Part shown: piece after piece, positions 631 to 43,100 of the stretch | Numbering within the stretch: position 1 is the stretch's first letter | How the letters are laid out: each line of letters opens with the position of its first letter | Assembly: GCA_029717555.1 (NCBI GenBank) | Contig: JAMDHS010000054.1 | Span: forward strand, 1 to 64,000 | DNA: 64,000 nt | Direction: 5' to 3' | Source of the DNA: Peribolospora baueri | Taxonomy: Eukaryota; Basidiomycota; Peribolosporomycetes; Peribolosporales; Peribolosporaceae | Notes under the pieces: model-generated | Database searches by the model: none | The model's input: only the letters and a program-made list of their open reading frames with translations | What the model was told of the DNA's origin: nothing | Translations under genes and position numbers: made by a program

Positions 631-3300
631 TCATGTCCGCCGCCTGCACGTCTCTACCGCCTCCTTCCGCGTCTCCGTCCCCGGCAAGGGCGACCAGACC
701 CTGCGAGCGAGCGGCATCGGCATCGGCATGGCCATGGACGCCGGTAGGGCTGCCATCCCGGCGCCCACATCCATGTCGAGTCCCCCTCCAACTCCGACCC
801 CGTCTAAAGGCAGCGAAAGGCCCACAGGCATGTCGCAGAAGAGCGCACGCGCCGAGCCCGACGGGGAAAGGAGCAGTTCCCCTCCCGCGGCGGCGGAATA
901 CGCCAGCGACCCGTCATCGCGCATGCCCGCATACGACCGCCGTTCCGGCGCACCGCCGCCGCCGCCGCCGTTGTCGTCGTCAGGGACAGGAACAGGATGG
1001 TCTCTGGTCGCGTGGACCTCTAAAAACGACCAATACTCGGCAAGGACCTCGGCGATCTGCTCCGGCGACATGGTCTCCATGTCCATCTTGCCAAAATGCA
1101 TGCCGACCAATGCCGTCGCCGCCGAGCGGTCCATCGCGGAGACGGGGGTGGAGATGGGGAATGGATTCGGGGCGAGAGCATAGAAAGAGTCTTGGCCTTG
1201 TTGGCCTTGGTGGGAGAGGGCGGAGTCGAAGAAGAAAGACTTGTCCGACGGCTGGTCCGGCTCGGGATCCGGGTCGATGTCCGCGCCTCCGCCGCCGTAC
1301 AACAATGACTGAGGCTCTTCGTCCTCCGCCTTCGGCTCTACGGTCGCAGTCCGTCCGTGGAAGGACGAGTGGAAGTGCTGTTCGGATGTGAGAGGGGAGG
1401 ACCAGGGTGCGCTCGGGGGCGGGGACGGAAGCAAGGGAATGGGGTGGTGGTGGACACCTGTGTCGGTGTATGCCCTAGCACGGAGCGGCCTTCGCCTGTC
1501 GACGCGGCCAACATGGTCCTCCCCCTCGTCCTCGCCGCCGCCGGCGATCCTGTTTTCGCCCATCCAAAGCGGCTGGGGCGCATTTCCGCCGGCGGCAGAG
1601 CCAAGAAGGCCCGAGCTAGAGCCCAAACCGACTGGAAAGGTGGCTGAGCCCTTGTTCGCGCTCGTGGTCGGTGAGGGCTGATAGATTCCAGCAGAGACGG
1701 GGACAGGGGCAGTGCGTCCTGCGGAGGACTTGCGAGTGCGAATAGGGCCGACGCTGGAGGATAACTGCGGCTGGGTGGGCGAAGCGGAGGAGAGACGCAT
1801 TCCGAAAAGGCCATGGGAGAGGGAGGGCTGTGGCGGTGGTGGTTGGGAACCGCTTGATGCAACCCTCTTCTTCTTCCTCCCTCTTACCTTCTTGCGCCTC
1901 GGCTTGTACTTGTATTCAGGGTACATGGCCCGGTCTGCGCGACGTCCGGCGTTCGAACGGCAGGATGAAAGAAGCGAAGAACGAGGAGCAAATGAGAAGA
2001 AAGGGAAAGGATAAGGATAAGGATAAGAACAAATAGGACGGAGACCGCGACGGACGAAGAGGTCCAACACGACACGATACGACACGACACGGCACGACAC
2101 GACGCGACACAACGCGACACGACGGAACCACTCACGCTCCTGCGCCTTGAGCTCGGCATACTCGTGATACTTCTTCCTGACATCGTCCGATTCTTTCCTC
2201 CACATTTCCGAGACGAGCTTGGAGATGTCAGCCTGTGGCGGCTTGCGGTTGTTGCCGAAAAGCTTCTCTCGGGTGATGGGGGAAATGGTCGAGCTGGGCG
2301 GCGAGGACGCTGTGGGGTTCGGTTTGCCGTCGTTGTTATTGACATCCCCGGCGTTGCCGTCGGCGTTACCGTCGGCGTTGGCGGCGCTGTTGGCGGTGGA
2401 GGGTGGGGATGTAAAGTTGGAGCCCTCGCCGTCGTTACCGCCCTGGGAGGAGGAAGAGGGCCCGGCAGAGGGTGGGGAGAGCTCGGAAGCGAGCGCGGCA
2501 TCGCTGTCGCCCGTGACTGCGGAGGCGTCCGTCGGCGCCTTGTCCTGCTCCTCGGAAAGGGATACGGCGGAACCGGCGCGAAGGCGCTTGAGAACATCGA
2601 TGCGGTATAGAATCCAAGCGTTCGGCGGGCGCGGGATGTCCTCCTCCGAGGGGTCCTCTTCCACTTGCTCGGTCTTGACGGCTGTGTCGGCAGCGGCAGA
2701 TGACATTTCCATGCTCATGCTGGGCGGCGGTGGAAGGTCGTGGAGCTGCCGTTGGAGGTTGTGGTAATGCATCGATGGCTGTGCGTTGTCCAACGGCGCC
2801 TCGGAAGCGGTCCACTGCATGTGCCGATACTGCTGGATGGGCCCATCAGCGGTCGTCGTTGCTGGGGGCCACGCGAAGCCAGCGGCGGGCATCATCGCAG
2901 CTCCGGGCGGACAGGGCAGGTGGACCTGTCCCTGGCCCTGACCGTGGATCTGGCCGGCGGGTGCATATAGGGCGGAGGGCGATCGCGAGCCAGAGGGTAG
3001 AGCGGGCGGACAAGGGTAGGTGGGGCCGAGGTATGGGTACGGGTATGGGTCGTACGGGTGCGGGTGGAAGGGAGAATAGGTGGGGTAGAGGGGGTTCTGA
3101 CCGGCGACGGCGTCCGTGTCAAGGCCTCGTCCTTCTGCGTCGTAGAGTCGCGCATCAAAGTAGCCTGCTGCGTCGTACACGCCGACGCCGATGCCGACGG
3201 GCAGAGGCGGTGGCTCTTGGGGCGGGCGGAGGAGAGAGGAATAAGAGTCGGTGGCGAGGGAGAGGGGCACATGGTCGGCGTTGAACGGTGGTGGCCGCAT
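631..3300 (-). CDS. HMG-box transcription factor (MATA_HMG-box type)
   Basis: Likely nuclear DNA-binding regulator. Two exons, 3300-2136 and 1934-631, give 822 residues. The 201-nt intron (GTGAGT...GCGCAG) splits the HMG box; it is a multiple of three and has no stop, so an unspliced reading also stays open. The box starts RPPNAWILYR at about residue 224 and resumes RKPPQADISKLVSEMW near residue 345; splicing restores AQEHRAMYPEYKYKPRRKK. About 100 Ser/Asn/Asp-rich residues separate the two parts, which is unusual. The N-terminus is Pro/Tyr-rich and the long C-terminus is low in complexity with acidic and Gly-rich tracts. Start: first ATG of the open frame. Fungal relatives include mating and pheromone-response HMG factors, but nothing here proves a mating role. 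Confidence 0.85.
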   Translation of the reverse strand: MRPPPFNADHVPLSLATDSYSSLLRPPQEPPPLPVGIGVGVYDAAGYFDARLYDAEGRGLDTDAVAGQNPLYPTYSPFHPHPYDPYPYPYLGPTYPCPPALPSGSRSPSALYAPAGQIHGQGQGQVHLPCPPGAAMMPAAGFAWPPATTTADGPIQQYRHMQWTASEAPLDNAQPSMHYHNLQRQLHDLPPPPSMSMEMSSAAADTAVKTEQVEEDPSEEDIPRPPNAWILYRIDVLKRLRAGSAVSLSEEQDKAPTDASAVTGDSDAALASELSPPSAGPSSSSQGGNDGEGSNFTSPPSTANSAANADGNADGNAGDVNNNDGKPNPTASSPPSSTISPITREKLFGNNRKPPQADISKLVSEMWRKESDDVRKKYHEYAELKAQEREWFRRVALCRVVSCRVVSYRVVLDLFVRRGLRPICSYPYPYPFPFFSFAPRSSLLSSCRSNAGRRADRAMYPEYKYKPRRKKVRGRKKKRVASSGSQPPPPQPSLSHGLFGMRLSSASPTQPQLSSSVGPIRTRKSSAGRTAPVPVSAGIYQPSPTTSANKGSATFPVGLGSSSGLLGSAAGGNAPQPLWMGENRIAGGGEDEGEDHVGRVDRRRPLRARAYTDTGVHHHPIPLLPSPPPSAPWSSPLTSEQHFHSSFHGRTATVEPKAEDEEPQSLLYGGGGADIDPDPEPDQPSDKSFFFDSALSHQGQQGQDSFYALAPNPFPISTPVSAMDRSAATALVGMHFGKMDMETMSPEQIAEVLAEYWSFLEVHATRDHPVPVPDDDNGGGGGGAPERRSYAGMRDDGSLAYSAAAGGELLLSPSGSARALFCDMPVGLSLPLDGVGVGGGLDMDVGAGMAALPASMAMPMPMPLARRVWSPLPGTETRKEAVETCRRRT
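2068..2124. repeat. Degenerate (CGACA)n microsatellite inside the HMG-gene intron
   Basis: Imperfect tandem pentamers (ACGACACGATACGACACG and variants) fill the donor-proximal third of the HMG-gene intron. A short (GGATAA)3 run lies nearer the acceptor at about 2009-2027. Slippage by whole 5-mers would change intron length but not the exons. Confidence 0.8.
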
Positions 3301-6300
3301 AGCTGGCCGGCGGGTAATATCTGTTGGAGAGGGAGGGGGGGAGGGGGCGGAGGAGGAGTAAGATAGGAGGAGGACAAAAGGGCGTATGGAGAAGAGGAGA
3401 GCTGCGAGGTCGGGGTATTGAGTGTGTCAGGAGTTATTGTACACGACAGAGATGAAAGAGGATGGGCGGCAGGGTTGTGGTGTTAGTGGAGGAGGAGGAA
3501 AAGAGTAGAGGAGGGGATGAGGAGGTGAAGGTGGTGGTGGGAGGAGAAGAAGCGAAGGGGAGCGTGTGGGGGAGAAACGAGGCGGGAAGGAGTGAGTGGA
3601 AGGAGAAAAGGGTGAAGGTGAGCATGGTGGGGGGAAAGGGACAAACGAGGGCGAGGACAAACGAGGAGGAGGACAAACGAGGACAATAATAAGGAGAGGA
3701 AAGGACTGGCTGGGTGGTGGACGTGAGAGGGTTGGAGGGAAGCAAGCTTATTGTTCTGGAGCGAGGAGCGAGGCGAGCCGGGCAGCACGGCCGGGTTGTA
3801 GGTTGGTTGGTTGGTTGGTTGGTCGGTTGGTTGGTTCGATTGGTTGTTGTTGTTTCGTCGTGGTCCGTGCTGTGCGTGCTGCCGGTGCTTCCGGTGGTGT
3901 CGCTGCTGGTGTCGTCGCTGGCGTCGTCGTCGTTCCTGTCATCCGCCGATGCGTGGGCCACTGACGGCTCTGCCGCCGGTCGTGCCTTCTCCCTCGAGCT
4001 GAGCAACGACAGGACGGGCAGACTGGTGAGGGAGTTTGAGCTGCCGTGATAGAGCCGGGCCCTTAAGACCTTCAATATGATTTCTCGATGTCGGGATCGT
4101 TCTGAAGGCTGGTTACCGAGAAGGAAGGCTGCAGGCCTACGAATACACACCGGACGACAGTGAGAGCGTCGAGGGGTTCGACGACTTCCTCGATGAGTTC
4201 GTGCGCTTCATGACCCGAGGCGTTGTTGTTGTCGTTGTTGTTTAGAGAGGCCCGTGCCATGGTTGAGCTCGGAGGAAGGTTAGGTGTGCAGTCGGTGTGC
4301 GTGCATGCGTCGTCACGCGTCCACGTCGAGCGGACGATGGATGGGTTGGTCGAGCCAGTCGGTTTATTTCGGCCCTCCCTCGCGTGCCCGCGTGGAGGCG
4401 AGGCGAGGAGAGGAGAGGAAGGAGGTCGAATGCGGCGGCGGAGACGAAACGGAGAGCGACGCAGGCCGACGCAGCCCAACGCAGGCCCAAACGCAGGCCC
4501 AGACACGGACACGAGATAGAGAAAGAGACAAAGAACAAGAGAAAGAGAAGAAAAAGAAAAAGAGAGACACAGACGCAGACAGGCCAAACAGACGAACGCG
4601 TGCCGCGCGCGGAGAAAGGCCGCGGCGAATTTTTCTTTTCTTCCTCGACCCACACACGTAACCTGCCGAAAGGAGGGGGCGGAGCGACGAAGGCGGGCGA
4701 AGCCTGTCGAGGGTCGAGGTCGAGGTCGAGGCGGAGACGTCCGTCCATCGACGTCCGACGACGATGTCCGAGTCCGGTTTCACCGACTGCTCGCTCGCTC
4801 GCCTTCCGTCCCCGCGGCGCATCGCATCGCATCGCATCGCATCCACCTCGGCGGACGTCGTTATGCGCGTTCAGGCCAAGGCCAGGCCGAAACACGCTCC
4901 TATCTTTGCTCTCGCCTGCGCCGGGCCGGCGAAAGAGAGAGAAAGAAAGGAAAGAAAAAAGGAAAGGAGAGCGGACGAGCGACGGGTGGCCGTCGAGGCG
5001 GGAGATGCATCGGACGACGCATCGTAAGCCTGGGAGAGCATGTGTCCATCACATAGCGTCCGCCAGCGAGCGAGCGAGCGAGAAAGCGAGGAAAGAAAGA
5101 TAGAAAGAAAAGAAAAGACGCCATTTCATGTACGGCCTGATCGTGTGCATCGACGGCGGCGAGTCGACGGCGGCGACGGCGACGATAACCCGTCTCGTCG
5201 TTCGTCCCCCGGTCCGACCGAGTCCCATATGGACCCCCCCCGCCGGCCTTGACGTGCAGCACCCGACCCACGTCGTACGTCGTACGTACGCTCGCGTCTG
5301 CGATGCGAAAGCGAGAGATAGGATGGGATGGGATGGGATGGGAACGGACGGGATGGGATAGGACGCAAATGTAAATGAAACGGAAGGAAATAACAGAAAC
5401 GATTACATCGGATAAAATTTAAACAAACTATGAAAAAGCCCCTAGTCCGTTCCGCCCGTTCGCTCTGTCGCTCCGTCTGTGCATCGTTTAGCGACCTGGC
5501 TAGCTGGCTAGATCAGGTGTACGAACGCAGAGAAGCGTAGGCGCGAGCCAGCCACACACACACACACACACAGACGCCGCCGTCGCTCGTCCCACAGTAC
5601 GTGTACGCGTCCGACGACGTATGCAAGTACGAATGTTGTGCGTACGTACGTATACCCCTCGTACGTACGTATGCACCTCGTCTACGCCAGACCAAGTCGA
5701 GAGGTGTGCGGCGTCTCGCCACTACGTCCCGGTGACGTCGGCGCCATGTCGTGTTCGCGTCGTGTCACGCGGCGGCCCACGAGGGACGGCCGACGTCCGT
5801 CCGGGCGGTCGAGCGGGGTATTCGGTCCGACCGACGGCGCGCAGCAAGCACGCAGCACAACACGTATATTTTTCGCACCTCCACTTCCACGTCCACGTCC
5901 ACTCGATTCGACTCGACTCGACTCGTGGACCATCCCCTCCTGCAGTCCATATCCACATATGCAACCCCAGACTGCTAACGTACGACCCTCGTTAGCGCCC
6001 CCGCCCCCGCCTCGGCTCGTATCGTGTCGTATCGTATCGTATCGTATTGTACCGTGTCGTACCCTTCCCTACCATCTCCCATTCCGTCTTCCGTCTTCTG
6101 TAGGCACGACCGACGCACTGCACACCGCACAGCGTGGGTCGAGCATTGCACCCGCCGCATTTGCCGCCTCCTTTCTTCTTTTCTCCGTTCCGAGTTGAAT
6201 GGAGTCGAGTCCAGTCCAGTCGTTCGTTCGTTCGTGTATGGGATGGGATGGATGTCCACCACCGCGTTCACCGCGTCCACCGCGCCTCGCAGCGCCGAGA

Positions 6301-34294: not shown

Positions 34295-35487
34295 TCTGTC
34301 GCACCCGTTCGTCCTCCTTGGATGGTGGGGGGGTGGGTGGAATGGAAAAACCTGGCTTGCTTGGTTTAAAACTTGTAAGCCGATCCAATGCTGCGGCTTC
34401 ACGACGGAGGTGGTGTGTGCGTTATTCAATAAAATTTGCTCTACACCGATGCGGGCTGGTGACAAAGTAGTTATTGAGGCTACCGATCGTGCGCCGTCCC
34501 CGTCTCGGGTTCATTCGAGAGAACGGAACGCCAAGGAACGGGCGGAATGAGGGCAGAAAGTTGTATGCGAGAGAGAGGGTTGCTAGAATACACGAGCGAT
34601 TTTTTTTGTTTCCCTTGGCCACGGGCGAACGACCAGCGCCGTTAACAATAAGAGTCGGAGCAAGTCGTCGTCACGTCGTGTCGGGTCCAAGTCGAACTAA
34701 GGTTCGGTTCGGCGCGGCGACACCGTGACGGACAAGCGACAAGCACCTTAAGGATCGGCTTCAGTCACTCGCTGAGCGCGCGCCCGCACCAACCCAGCGG
34801 CCAGCGGCCGAGAGGACGAGGCTTCGACCCAAGTCGCAATCGCCCATAGGAAAAGGGGTAAGAGAGAAGACTGGAAAGATGAGAGGGAGAAGACGATGAC
34901 AGTGCGGAAAAAAACGCGCGGAAAAACACTCAGACCGGAACAAGACAGCTGTACACAGCTCAGTCTATGAAAGATGGAGAAGGATTGGAGCGAAGATGGG
35001 CCCGAGGGAAGGGACATCCTGAAAGCCCAGTGGCATCGCGGCGGCAGATTTCGCTTGTCCATCGACCCGGTCACGGTAGAGATTTCGCCACAGCTGGATA
35101 AGCCTGCGTGGGCGTCGCTTCTCCGTCCATCTGACTCTTGTTCTCGGCGGCGGCATCAGAAGTTTTGAGTGCCGTGACGGTAGGGTGTTGACCGAGCGGG
35201 CTCTTCGCGTAAGAAGGAGAGTCCGGCCTCGAGGGAGGACGAGAAGATGGCCTAGAGGGCGGTTGGGACGATGTGGTGGCGGCGTGGCCATTTATGGAGG
35301 GGACGGGGACAGAGAAAGAGCCGGAGAGCGAGGTGGATGATTGGGCTCGGTAAGGTTGCGGACAGTCGTACGGGCTGCCCGGGCGAGAGGATCAGGAATC
35401 AAAGAAATGAGCGAGTACAGAGTCGACGTCGGCTAAATTCCCACTGAATGAAATTTGGGGCGGGACAAGCGAAGACAAGAATCGGGC
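34295..35487. other. Intergenic region SMN1 promoter / PRPP synthetase 3' flank
   Basis: About 1.2 kb. It should hold the SMN1 promoter on its left and the PRPP synthetase 3' UTR on its right. I see no conserved ORF, tRNA or repeat. Confidence 0.55.
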
Positions 35488-37291
35488 TCACATCTCCTTA
35501 AACAGCACGCTAACGCTCTCCCCGAAATGACTCCTCCGAATCGTTTCCGCCAAAACGTGGGAGATGTCAATCTGGTCGATTTTGGGGCATTTCTCGATGT
35601 TTACTTTCTGTGGGATCGTGTTAGTCACGACGAGCGTTTCGAGCTTGCTGTTGTTGATGCGGTCCAATGCCGGTCCGCTGAGAATACCATGGGTGACCAT
35701 GCCCACTACGCGCTCTGCTCCGCTCTCCGCGAGACGCTGGGCGGCGAGGTCGAGGGTGCCGCACGTGTCGGCCATGTCATCAATCAGGATAGCCACTTTG
35801 CCGCGCACGTCGCCCACGAGCACCATCCGGGACACTTCGTTGGCCTTCTTGCGTTCCTTGTGGAAGAGAGCAAATTCCAGGTTTAGCCGATCTGCCACGG
35901 ACGTCGCCCTGCGAAACGAAGTGGAGAGCGATGGGGGTAATGTGAGAAGGAAATCATCTCGCAAAAAAAGGGGAAGCGGTGAAGGAGCGTCCGCTCACCT
36001 TTTAGCACCGCCAGCGTCGGGTGACACGATGACAGCCTTTTTGATGTCGATCATTTCGCGAATGTACTGGAGCATCGCTGGTTCGGCGTAGAGCTGTGAT
36101 TGGGAAGAGGGCTGCGTGAGTGAGGCTCCGCGCGGGAAGGGCTAAATGGAAGACTGGAGCCGACTCACGCTGTAAGAGAGAAGACAAACGCGTAATGATG
36201 GCGCAAAAAGATGAGGCCGAGCATGAGCTGGAGAACATATCTCAGATCACGGAACGGGCAAAGCCAGCGCTCACTTGTCCACGGGCACGTCGAAAAAGCC
36301 TTGAATCTGACTGGCGTGCAAGTCCATGGTCTGCGCGAGAGGTTGAACAGTCGGAAAGAACCAGTTAAACGCAAGCTCGAAGGAAACATGAAAGGGTAAG
36401 CTGGTGAACGACAATGTACTCACGATGACATGATCGCATCCGGCCTTCTGCAGTAAGTTGGCCACGAGCTTGGCCGTAATGGGTGCCCTGCTCTTGTCCT
36501 TCTTATCCTGCCTCGCGTAAGGAAAGTGGGGGATGACGGCGGTAATTCGTCGGGCGGATGCGACCTTGCAAGCGTGGATCATGATCAGCAGCTCCATGAG
36601 CGCCGTGTTAACCGATCCGCAGCCCGTGTTGATGATGTATACGTCGTCCTCGCGCACGGACTCTGCGATCCGCACTTCCGTCTCTCCTGCTTCATTGCGG
36701 GAGACGTCTGCTAGGGCGAGGGGAAGACCGAGGCTACGAGTCCGGAGAGGGGGGTGGGGTTCAGAGACGAGACAGGTCGCAATGGTGGTCAGATGAATGC
36801 CTCAAACTGCTTGAGCTTCATAGTCTGCTCCTTCTCTCCCGCTCGTGTACGATCACTCTGCTGAAGAAGGTAACCCTCTTCGTCCCTTCGTCCCCTTTGC
36901 CTTCTGTCCTCGCCGCGACAGTCTGTCCATCTCCAAGCGAACTCGTCCCACACGGTGACTCAAAACCAAAAAAAAACCAAAAACCTTGCCAACTCACCGC
37001 TTCGCAATGAGGTGCGCCAGTTCCGGGTGGCTCGTGCCTGAGTGGGAGAGCGGGAAGGGGATGTGCGGAGAAGGGGGTTAGTCCGCAGGTCAGGTCAGGT
37101 CAGGTCAGGTCGGGTTGGAAAGACAGGGTGTGCTATCTCCCCTGTCCACGCCTCCAAGAGCGTTCCCCTCTCGAGCCAATTTCATTCGTCCCACTTATCT
37201 ACTCGCTGCGCACACGCAACACGAGGCGAAGGCGAGGCGAAGAACGCATGCACGCACCGGAAAATAGCTTGACGCCTTTCATAGAATTCAT
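35488..37291 (-). CDS. Ribose-phosphate pyrophosphokinase (PRPP synthetase)
   Basis: Makes PRPP from ribose 5-phosphate and ATP for purine, pyrimidine, His, Trp and NAD synthesis; cytosolic. It resembles yeast Prs2/3/4 more than Prs1/5. Proposed exons are 37291-37258, 37037-36998, 36733-36424, 36330-36275, 36169 (one nucleotide), 36093-35999 and 35908-35488. They total 957 nt (318 aa), the normal family length. Landmarks are [20 protein letters not shown], the flexible loop [55 protein letters not shown] and the PRPP loop [13 protein letters not shown]. Without the one-nucleotide exon the frame breaks between PVD and LYAEP. Intron 1 carries a (CAGGT)5 run. Confidence 0.93.
36169..36169 (-). 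other. Proposed single-nucleotide exon of the PRPP synthetase gene
   Basis: On the minus strand the sequence reads TTACAG-C-GTGAGT. Upstream exon 36330-36275 ends GAC AA before GTGAGC, and downstream exon 36093 begins CTC TAC after TCACAG. Including the lone C makes AAC, so PVDNLYAEP is restored as in the family. The two introns are 105 and 75 nt. Any longer exon from this acceptor either has the wrong length modulo three or meets a TAG. Confidence 0.75.
37086..37111. repeat. (CAGGT)5 microsatellite in PRPP synthetase intron 1
   Basis: Five CAGGT units in tandem lie just inside the 3' part of the 220-nt first intron. Confidence 0.85.
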
Positions 37292-38074
37292 GCTCGGCAA
37301 GCAAGCCTGGAATTCTGCTGTCGCTTATCGAGGCGAGGGAAAGAAAGGAAAGGGAGTGGAAATGCGACTTGGGACGGCGGAGGGCAGACGAGATGGGATG
37401 TGATAGGAGGGTGCGTGTGGAGAGGGCCGAGGCGGGGCGGGTTGGAGAAGCTGGAAACGAGCCGCAGAGGGCGGAGTGGGCGGGATGAAGGAGTGGAGGA
37501 GTGGGAACGTTTGTCTTATCTTTCCTTGTCCAAGACGAGCCGACGCAGCAAAGTCAAGTCAAGGGAAGGAGGAGCGAAGGAGGGGCTGAAGGAAGAGCGG
37601 TCACCCCGACGACGACGATTCGAACCAGATTCGATTTCCTCTTTTTTTTTGGCCTGAACATTTTGGCCGTTGCGTGCGAGTGGCGGATCCAACCGGATCG
37701 AGCCGACGCGGCGGTTCGACAGCGCTGCGGCTCAGGCGCAAGAAGGAACGCGGCGGGGGCGTGGGAATGTCGGCTACCTGGGGCGGCGCCGGCGCGGACA
37801 CAGATAGAAAGAAGATGGGGAAAAGAACGACGAGCGACGACGCACACGACCGTGTATGTCATCCTGTCATATCAGGGATGGATGCCTCAAACGTCACGCC
37901 GATACGCTCTCCCCTCCCTCCTCTCGAGCAGATCACAAGTGGACTGCTCCAGGGCTTGTAGTCATCGATCACATACAGGCAGCAAGACGGAAGGAAGACT
38001 AGAAGCAAAGAGCGAAGGAGAGAGAGCGAGATAGGCAGGTACCAGCGGCCTCGCGCCGTCGACCCTCTCTTCCT
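37292..38074. promoter_or_regulatory. PRPP synthetase promoter and SDH3 3' flank
   Basis: About 780 bp. The left part is the upstream region of the PRPP synthetase gene and is purine-rich on the plus strand, so pyrimidine-rich in the gene's sense. No additional conserved ORF is seen. Confidence 0.5.
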
Positions 38075-40198: not shown

Positions 40199-43100
40199 AT
40201 GCCGTCCGACAGGCCCCCATCCATGTTCACCAATCCTCCCGGCGGCTCCTTGCCGAAGGATGCCGCCACCCGAGTCCCTACGGCGGACACGCCAGACATG
40301 GCGTCCTACCTCTCCTCCCGCTCCGCGCTCATCGGCTCAGACAACGCTCAGCGTTTCGACAGCGCCAAGCTGGCCAACCTCACTCCGCTCGAGAGGCAGG
40401 CGGAGAGTATCGTGAGGGCGATTAGAAAGAGGGAAGAGGAGGAGGTTTGGAACGCCGACGAATCCACTTTTCCCGGTATGAAGTTCCTCCTCGGCAAACG
40501 CATTGCTGAGCGGACGGCATTGTACGATATCGTAAAGAAGGTGTGTGTGGCCTCGTTATGGGCTCGTGTTTGTTCTGCTGGATGAGGAGACCGCTTGAAT
40601 TCGTGGTCATCGCTCATGCTCGCTCCCGTGCCTTCACTCCACATAAACCTCGGAATGGGTGCTGCCTCCTAACATTTTACATTTCTCTCGCTTTTCGAAC
40701 GCATGTCTACTGTGTCTCTCCTTGTAGATGCCCAAAGGGGCCCTGCTTCACTGCCACATGGACGCGACGTACGTGGACTGGCTGACTCGAGCGCGACGCT
40801 CATTTTCTTGTGGCATTCACCCGTGTGCTATATTTCCTTGACGTCGTCCTCGTTCTCATTCGTGTCCCTGCCTTCTCCATCTCCCTACGCGATGTAGCGC
40901 CGAAGTATCCTATCTGATCTCGGAAGCGATGAGCACCCCGAACATCGGGTTCTCCTCTCCTCTTCCTCTCACATCCGCAGCCAACATCGCCTCCGTCGTA
41001 CCGTCCTTCAAAGCCTTGCCTCCTCAAGATCCCCTCTTCTCCGCTGCACTATCCAACGAAGGTCTTCCTCCAGAGTGCCGCGTCTATTCTTCCGACTACG
41101 TTCCCAACACCTGGCTCCCCGTTTCGTATGCTCGGGAGAACTTCCCCAACGGCGGTCCTCACGCCTTTGATGCGTGGATCCACTCTCTCATGACTTTCAC
41201 GGCGGACGAAGCCTACACGACCTTCCGCAACCACAAGGATGCGTGGCGCAAGTTCCATAGCACTTTCGGCATTGCCAGAGGCCTCTTGGGCTATGAGCTC
41301 ATTCTCAAAAAGTATATCAGGCGCGTGTTCGAGGATTGCGTGAGCGACGGCATCGGGTGGGTGGAGACGAGGATAAACTTTCTCGACTGGGTAAGTGAGC
41401 AAGCCTTGCAGCTCTGTTCGGCCCGGCTTCGTTCAGTAGTAGGAAGTAGAGACATGCAGGCGAAATGTCTTACCTGGTCAAAATCACCACACCGTAACTT
41501 CGTCCCGTCCCCCACCCCGCAAAGACGATGATTCGGAGGGATGGCACGGACACTTTCTCTCACAGGGATTGGATGCAGACCTACCAGGAAGCCCTCTCCG
41601 AGTTCAAGGCCGACTTGGCCGCCAAGGGACAAGGTGACCGCTTCTGGGGCGCGAAGGTGAGCGATCCAAAATCGGGTCTTGACGCCATCCTGGTTGAGCG
41701 TGGCACAGGGGACGGCGGCACGGTTACTCGCCTCTTTGTGTCGCGTCATCGTTTGGTGATCGTTTCGCCGCTCTCCCTCGTTCGTCGGCATTCCTGCATT
41801 CCTTTCACTCCAAGGTCATCTACACGACGATCCGGATAATCACCAACGAAGAGCTGCGAGAGTACATGGAAGACTGTATCAACCTTAAGGAGGAGTTCCC
41901 TGACCTCATCGGAGGTTCGTGATCTTTGTTCGATCGCGAGAAGGAGCTCGTTCACTGTGGAAGCTCGAGCTGAAGCAGCTGATGTCTGACTTGACCGATT
42001 TGGCTCGAACAGGATTTGATCTCGTAGGCTACGAAGATCCCGGCATCACCCTAAAGGTGTGATCCGCTTTCCTTTCTCTCGCAGCCTCTAGGAGACTTTC
42101 ATCGCTCACTTGACCATTCCTTGCTTTAGGACTACCTTCCCTCCCTCCTCTGGTTCCAAGCTCGCCAGAAGGAGCGGGGCGTGCATGTGCCCTTCATCTT
42201 CCACGCTGGGGAGACGCTCGGCGATGGGACTCCCGCGGATCACAACGTGAGTGAGAGATTCATATCCACGACCGCTTCCGAGCTCATCCCTTTCATTCTA
42301 CACACTCCGGCGCTGCGGCCTGTTCGCACCCGATGCACCGCGGACTCCAGTTATTCGACGCCCTATTGCTCGGCACAAAGCGCATCGGACACGGGTAAGT
42401 CTTGACGAAGCAGTATGGCTTATTGATCGATTCATTTACCTCGCATTCGCCTTTCCGGTGCCTTCTCACAGCTATTCCCTCGCCAGACATCCTGTCTTGA
42501 TGCAAGAGGTCAAGGATCGTGGCGTGCTGATCGAAGTGTGCCCCATTTCGAACGAGCTCCTGGTGAGAACACGAAGGAGATGACGCGGACTCAACTCTTC
42601 CCGATCACTCATCGCCCACATGCCCACTCGCTCGCATGGTCCCTCTTCTGCGTCTCCCCTTTGCCAGCACTATGCCCCCTCGATAAGCTCTCACCCGCTC
42701 CTCATCCTCCTGAACCATGGCGTACCCGTCAGTCTCTCATCCGATGATCCCGGCATCTTCGGAAACCCGGGCGTCAGCTATGATTTTTTCCAGGTGAGCC
42801 AGCAGGCTGCCCAAGGCTGCGATCGATGCGTTCGTCCACTAGTTTTGTCTTGATCTTACGAACCGCCGCCTTTTGACGCCCTCACTCCGTCCCCTTTAGC
42901 TCATCGCCACGAGCGAGCAAACCGGCATCATCTCGTGCGGCGTTCTCGCCCGTCAAAGCATTGAGGCGAGTTTGACATCCCCGTTCTCATCACATCTGAT
43001 CGACGCTTCCGTTTCCCGCTCGCCTGGCTCAATGGGAGAGTGGGCAACGTGCTGAAAGCGACCCCGTGTGGCACATTTCCACCCGATTCTTCCAGTTCTC

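Follow-up and report, generated by a model that had tools for sequence, protein, structure and literature searches.

Introduction

Among the closest described counterparts of the exon proposed here is the single-nucleotide exon of the Fusarium P450 gene CYP621A, which is supported by RNA and is presented by its authors as the first fungal case (PMC12940212). According to the extracts available from that paper, the exon base is a G (AGGGT) that forms the second base of a Gly codon; the exon is attributed to 20 orthologs in the abstract and to 24 genes in the discussion, and it is backed by 18 SRA reads from two species (PMC12940212). In plants, both inclusion of the one-nucleotide exon of Arabidopsis APC11 and substitution of its base have been examined experimentally, and in the extracts its authors regard intron definition, with the introns removed one after another, as most plausible (PMC4674806). 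The same extracts describe potato invertase, in which the second of the two introns around a 9-nt exon leaves first and in which an artificial one-nucleotide exon was skipped in 33% of transcripts (PMC4674806). A further plant single-nucleotide exon has been described in VPS55 (PMC8831610), and mitochondrial cases are reported for a placozoan and for Ophiostomatales. Gene annotation and read mapping are stated to miss such exons often (extracts of PMC8831610 and PMC12940212).

Related arrangements are known as well. Stwintrons are spliceosomal twin introns of ascomycetes (PMC6616335, PMC5639578), and in ascomycetes and fission yeast intron definition is held to be the rule, with splice sites paired across short introns (extracts of PMC6616335). 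The human MPC1 gene contains a microexon of 4 bp with strong flanking sites, and forms cut to 2, 1 and 0 bp are still spliced; the extracts of the same paper also state that, in human cells, recursive splicing close to a newly formed junction is inhibited by exon junction complexes (PMC9929638).

Here, we describe a locus within the window (the whole stretch of 64,000 nucleotides of Peribolospora baueri DNA that was analysed) that carries a gene for ribose-phosphate pyrophosphokinase (PRPP synthetase). The gene very probably works, and its C at position 36169 very probably serves as a spliceosomal exon of one nucleotide that is included constitutively. As far as the extracts on CYP621A go, both cases concern a fungal nuclear gene with a phase conflict in a conserved motif and with a single base separating AG from GT in an intron that is longer than usual, and in both the family motif is restored. 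Unlike the G in a Gly codon of CYP621A, however, the base here is a C and the third base of an Asn codon, the gene belongs to primary metabolism, a hairpin is predicted, and the exon itself is a prediction from the sequence. With APC11 and VPS55, as they appear in the extracts, the locus shares a one-nucleotide exon required for the reading frame, although those are plants and other genes. With stwintrons, which come closest in layout, it has in common an intervening sequence made up of two short U2 introns, for which sequential removal by intron definition may be expected; as characterized in the extracts, however, an element of the external intron of a stwintron is split, the order of removal is obligatory and nothing is left, whereas in our case a single base would remain and either order would in principle be possible. 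The likeness to MPC1 lies in the strong flanking sites, but its natural exon is 4 bp long, is spliced in human cells and is attributed in the extracts to exon definition. In searches on one-nucleotide exons, fungal microexons and PRPP synthetase introns, none of the titles and abstract openings among the matches listed dealt with a one-base exon in PRPP synthetase. The first-pass annotation of this DNA had called single-base exons extremely rare, which is a fair description, though the plant and Fusarium precedents are in print.

Structure and product of the PRPP synthetase gene

The PRPP synthetase gene extends from 37291 to 35488 on the minus strand. Its joined frame comprises the exons 37291-37258, 37037-36998, 36733-36424, 36330-36275, 36093-35999 and 35908-35488 (34, 40, 310, 56, 95 and 421 nt) together with C36169, and the intervals between these six exons measure 220, 264, 93, 181 and 90 nt, the 181-nt interval being the one in question. 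Along this intact frame, Pfam places PF13793 (169.7 bits), PF14572 (141.2 bits) and PF00156 (58.7 bits), all above the curated cut-off, and a phmmer search of the product against the PDB matched PRPS1/PRPS2 chains with a best E-value of 4.1e-134. We take the matched chains to be human. The domains along the intact frame and the matches to PRPS chains identify the product as a member of the PRPP synthetase family.

With C36169 included, the CDS is 957 nt long including the stop codon, encodes 318 aa and reads PVDNLYAEP. The first-pass annotation had derived the codon AAC, this motif and these lengths from the addition of the C, and translation reproduced all of them. Its further argument that 318 aa is the normal length of the family is weak. 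A possible extra last intron lies at 35491-35375 on the minus strand (GAGAT/GTGAGC ... GGGCAG/CCC), with a donor of 7.4 bits that overlaps the stop codon and an acceptor of 7.2 bits. Use of this intron would replace the C-terminal Met-stop by Ile-Pro-Tyr (...LFKEIPYDC...) and add approximately 100 further Ser/Pro-rich residues. Because the gene finder chose this intron and extends the protein through it, the argument from a length of 318 aa should carry no weight.

A phase conflict and a single base that would relieve it

The two exons flanking the 181-nt interval were placed by the joined translation and by alignment to PDB chains. The upstream exon (36330-36275, minus strand, 56 nt, 18 codons plus AA) ends with CCC GTG GAC AA/GTGAGC in phase 2, and the downstream exon (36093-35999, minus strand, 95 nt), preceded by TCACAG, begins with CTC TAC GCC GAA CCA in phase 0. 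The exons ending at 36275 and starting at 36093 are out of phase by exactly one base, and their direct joining in frame is impossible. Between them, model enumeration singles out the C at 36169 (minus strand), flanked by TTACAG and GTGAGT, as a one-nucleotide exon that supplies the third base of the Asn147 codon AAC. Judged by sequence and site scores, it separates intron A (36274-36170, minus strand, 105 nt, GTGAGC...TTACAG) from intron B (36168-36094, minus strand, 75 nt, GTGAGT...TCACAG). The coordinates, phases and motifs of the first-pass annotation agreed exactly with the sequence.

The predicted mRNA with the single C reads GACAA-C-CTCTAC, or GACAACCTCTAC over a longer stretch of the junction, and would read GACAACTCTAC if the C were omitted; in the assembly, the genomic letters at the two exon edges within 36330-36000 are GACAAGTGAGC and CACAGCTCTAC. 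Five PDB chains of PRPS1/PRPS2, which are near-identical variants and hardly independent of one another, read FFDIPVDNLYAEPA without a gap at the junction. Translation of the direct 36275/36093 join shows that skipping of the exon leads to an early stop; retention of intron A gives a stop directly after VDK, and retention of intron B an early stop.

Splice-site strength and chance expectation

Viterbi gene finder models with a realistic intron cost gave 12 genes and 62 introns for the window. The site matrices were built from 56 of these introns, with A, B and the four introns of the gene model at 631-4260 left out; this model is of low complexity, and its introns are counted among the 62 and not among the sets of 56 or 58. 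One misplaced acceptor (that of a called exon at 42381-42394, discussed below) is contained in the matrices of the shuffle, finder and 44-intron tests and was replaced for the site scores and for the ranking of 444 sites.

Donor A scores 8.47 bits, and 31 of the 56 other donors are lower or equal; the corresponding values are 11.28 bits for acceptor A (56 of 56), 9.88 bits for donor B (43 of 56) and 9.35 bits for acceptor B (49 of 56). In a stricter set of 53 introns, the shares that are lower or equal are 28/53, 53/53, 39/53 and 47/53 in the same order. The 56 other introns measure 73-322 nt with a median of 112.5 nt, and three of them are no longer than 75 nt, so that 105 and 75 nt are legal sizes against the minimum of 73 nt; the locus combines an AG-N-GT with usable sites and two introns of legal size. 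When all 444 AG-N-GT sites on both strands of the window are ranked by summed acceptor and donor score, 36169 takes first place with 21.2 bits, the next site reaching 16.6 bits, which bears out the earlier remark that a good acceptor and a good donor stand one base apart here. Among the other introns of at least 86 nt (n = 44), 11 contain an AG-N-GT that would leave two introns of at least 42 nt, with a best sum of 12.9 bits.

The best-surviving alternative, which we consider very unlikely, is a single 181-nt intron in an assembly or allele that lacks one junction base, TTACAG-C-GTGAGT then being a chance match. An intron of 181 nt would be quite ordinary here, as 13 of the 56 others are at least that long, and donor A could pair with acceptor B, each being a good site. 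However, this explanation needs two independent coincidences, namely that a base was lost exactly at an exon edge and that the AG-N-GT scoring highest in the window happens to be present, with C or T as its central base. Dinucleotide shuffling of the interval, repeated 20,000 times, never attained the observed sum of acceptor and donor, and even at a much looser threshold (each site exceeding the 10th percentile of genuine sites) an AG-[C/T]-GT appeared in only 105 of the 20,000. There is no long homopolymer at the edge: the closest run is a TTTTT situated 18 nt upstream, and an error in it would already disturb the frame ahead of the junction. The remainder of the gene is intact, which argues against a broken allele.

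Enumeration of splice models

All models that place one intron or two between the two exons were enumerated, with GT or GC donors, AG acceptors and a minimum intron length of 40 nt. This yielded 445 models that are open in frame, and a single one of them, the one-nucleotide exon, preserves VD-x-LYAEP in its 50-residue register; it is the only one of these simple models to restore the protein. The subset restricted to GT-AG introns contains 81 open models (10 with one intron and 71 with two), and the best of these against the PRPS segments is again the one-nucleotide exon, with a score of 205. The runner-up, at 189, contains the same one-nucleotide exon followed by a GCAG acceptor 18 nt upstream of the main one (intron end 36112); it inserts PSSQSQ and, unlike skipping or retention, introduces no stop. 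The first-pass annotation had held that no other exon from the acceptor of intron A works, which is right in that only one of the 445 models keeps the register, but it did not mention this in-frame PSSQSQ alternative with the same one-nucleotide exon.

It could also be proposed that the middle exon is larger or different, or that the one-nucleotide exon is combined with the acceptor at 36112, so that a small insertion (PSSQSQ or similar) is made. The 81 open GT-AG models allow for this, and the GCAG acceptor, at 8.65 bits, compares well with the 9.35 bits of the main acceptor. On the other hand, insertion models that keep both conserved halves add residues where the five PDB chains have none, models from the AG at 36228 require an intron of 47 nt, below the 73-nt minimum of the 56 others, and only a few bases separate the GCAG acceptor from the CTCAC motifs that are candidate branch points of intron B. 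Such a product is highly improbable as the regular one, and the PSSQSQ form is possible as a minor isoform.

The one-nucleotide exon was also recovered by the gene finder when the codon statistics were taken from the other 11 gene models and the site matrices were built without introns A and B: its model was picked with 63.6 bits. In-silico loss of acceptor A or donor B lowers the total to 58.0 bits, and the rival then chosen drops the entire conserved exon 36330-36275. The resulting margin of 5.6 bits is modest because the finder ignores protein conservation. When the base at 36169 is swapped, the finder total (codon plus sites) becomes 64.9 for G, which encodes Lys, 62.1 for A and 59.4 for T. 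The finder is a crude instrument: it called two internal exons shorter than 20 nt, and one of them, the 14-nt exon 42381-42394 (plus strand) of an adenosine-deaminase-like gene, was judged to be wrong, since the frame continues upstream from 42351. With one error among its two tiny exons, the case for C36169 rests on enumeration and conservation and not on the finder alone. The exon of the adenosine-deaminase-like gene is probably 44 nt long (42351-42394, plus strand).

That the interval is a stwintron, with an internal intron splitting the donor of an external one and nothing left between, can hardly be credited: two U2-type introns do lie within 181 nt and stwintrons do occur in fungi, but in the donor-disrupted classes [D1,2] and [D5,6], as the extracts describe them, the internal intron sits inside the intronic donor, whereas at this locus the single base C36169 separates intron A from an intact GTGAGT further downstream, the base before intron A is an A and gives no [D1,2] reading, and the frame needs C36169 in the mRNA. 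The first-pass annotation had also offered recursive splicing; its strict zero-length form, in which AG directly precedes GT and no base is retained, does not apply, as one base lies between the two sites, is required by the frame and would stay in the mRNA.

Branch-point candidates in introns A and B

The branch motif CTRAY is present in 24 of the 58 intron tails and absent from both A and B. Counted back from its 3' end, intron A contains CTCAT with the A at 42 or 54 nt and ATCAT with the A at 26 nt. In intron B, a motif search found two overlapping CTCAC candidates (36116-36124, minus strand; A at 36121 and 36117), which lie in the 3' arm of the hairpin described below. The enriched motifs of the intron tails are CTGAC (13 of 58, 2.9 expected) and CTGAT (10 of 58, 2.0 expected), as well as TCATT and CATTT. 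CTCAC stands outside the 15 enriched tail motifs listed, and on motif grounds it is a weak candidate for the branch site of intron B. Intron B also holds a CATTT, which would sit in the hairpin loop.

The possibility that intron A is a duplicate of intron B found no support, as their local similarity score of 12 falls below the shuffle mean of 14.3. Neither A nor B shares any 16-mer with other parts of the window, and Rfam contains no known RNA element matching the window at the gathering threshold or the region 35300-37400 at E <= 1.

A predicted hairpin over the exon and donor B

What is new here in terms of predicted structure is a hairpin in which the exon base and donor B pair with the stretch that holds the branch-point candidates. 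The RNA hairpin (36114-36170, minus strand) is predicted at -24.1 kcal/mol, with 36170-36163 pairing with 36114-36121 and 36161-36156 with 36124-36129. Its first arm runs from the acceptor G through C36169 to the end of donor B, whose GUGAGU is entirely included, and the opposite arm is the stretch with both CTCAC candidates of intron B. In a context of 332 nt, the pair probabilities are 0.95-1.0. The region 36175-36110 folds at -24.1 kcal/mol against -13.8 (sd 2.5) for shuffled sequences, none of 1000 being as low, in a test that is post hoc because the hairpin was first noticed in a fold of the full region; taken as a whole, the fold of these 221 nt is unremarkable (z = -0.12).

A uniform rule, with a segment that starts 7 nt ahead of the donor and ends 66 nt past it, was applied afterwards to 58 introns. 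Intron B came first by z (-4.31) but not by raw energy, for another intron reached -26.3 kcal/mol. None of 111 consensus-like decoy donors outside the called introns reached z <= -3, the lowest value being -2.32, and random 66-nt windows (n = 1000, at least one without a valid z) gave 2 values at z <= -4 and 16 at z <= -3. Donor B is predicted to be the second least accessible of the 58 donors, and it remains that poorly accessible after removal of intron A (0.009). The intron that follows in the PRPP synthetase gene (35998-35909, minus strand) is second of the 58 by z (-2.93), and its donor is again paired. Structure close to the donor, as predicted by these folds, may be a theme of this gene.

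Order of intron removal

Based on the sequence features presented above, we infer that the splicing of C36169 occurs, that it is constitutive and that the introns are removed sequentially. Intron A, of 105 nt, and intron B, of 75 nt, would each be recognised across the intron. Simultaneous occupation of acceptor A and donor B, with one base between them, is hardly possible, a view shared by the authors of the APC11 study (PMC4674806), and the two introns would therefore be removed one after another. Either order of removal would leave a workable second intron. Exon definition would probably be no obstacle, the other introns being short; intron definition is assumed for this organism by analogy.

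There are two weak hints that intron A may leave first. The score of donor B rises from 9.88 to 11.58 bits (+1.7) in the joined context AAC/GTGAGT that removal of A would create, and donor B is buried in the predicted hairpin. By analogy with potato invertase, where the second intron leaves first, the reverse order would be expected, and the inhibition of recursive splicing by exon junction complexes, as described for human cells in the extracts of PMC9929638, also counts against sequential removal beginning with A. The 33% skipping of the artificial one-nucleotide exon in potato invertase is a further point against the proposed splicing.

It is conceivable, if rather doubtful, that the predicted hairpin is part of the mechanism. 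Intron A would then be the only removable intron at first, and donor A would be kept from the branch site of B, so that skipping would not occur; opening of the stem would subsequently free donor B and the presumed branch site together. Our confidence in this role, low from the start, was lowered slightly further by the finding that CTCAC is not among the enriched branch motifs. Alternatively, the hairpin might act as a limit on expression, and it could set the level of PRPP synthetase because skipping and retention both give early stops.

The Asn position in distant relatives

Searches for orthologs returned no fungal PRPP synthetase from viral_contigs or genome_contigs, neither of which is made up of fungi. 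The search of viral_contigs gave four distant viral loci, and that of genome_contigs gave four bacterial loci from 26 candidate stretches. At the position of the Asn, these eight loci have H (four), Y (two), S (one) and N (one), never K, and three of the eight carry one additional residue directly before VD. Judged from these alignments, the Asn column is conserved among close relatives only and variable far out.

Other genes of the window

Between 631 and 59818, Pfam or PDB support was obtained for an HMG-box protein, an SNF2-type helicase, a WD40 protein, a TPT-like transporter and a DUF383 protein, and further supported models encode MRP-S25 (PF13741, mitochondrial ribosomal protein S25), a UMP/adenylate kinase-like protein and a cullin. 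PF13741 is presumably a fungal family. We further assume that the window contains genes for a deaminase-like protein, whose tested frame has no Pfam match, and for a multi-pass membrane protein. The models across the window have several short introns per gene, which together with the PF13741 match suggests a fungal source.

Implications

If confirmed, PRPP synthetase would be a second nuclear fungal gene with a one-base exon; it is unrelated to CYP621A and makes the PRPP for nucleotide synthesis. Where one-base exons are missed, essential genes may be annotated as broken. The locus is also small enough to serve as a convenient test of what the spliceosome does when two sites are separated by a single base and exon definition has no room to operate. 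Should the hairpin indeed take part in splicing, a structure-gated one-base exon would be a control point of nucleotide supply.
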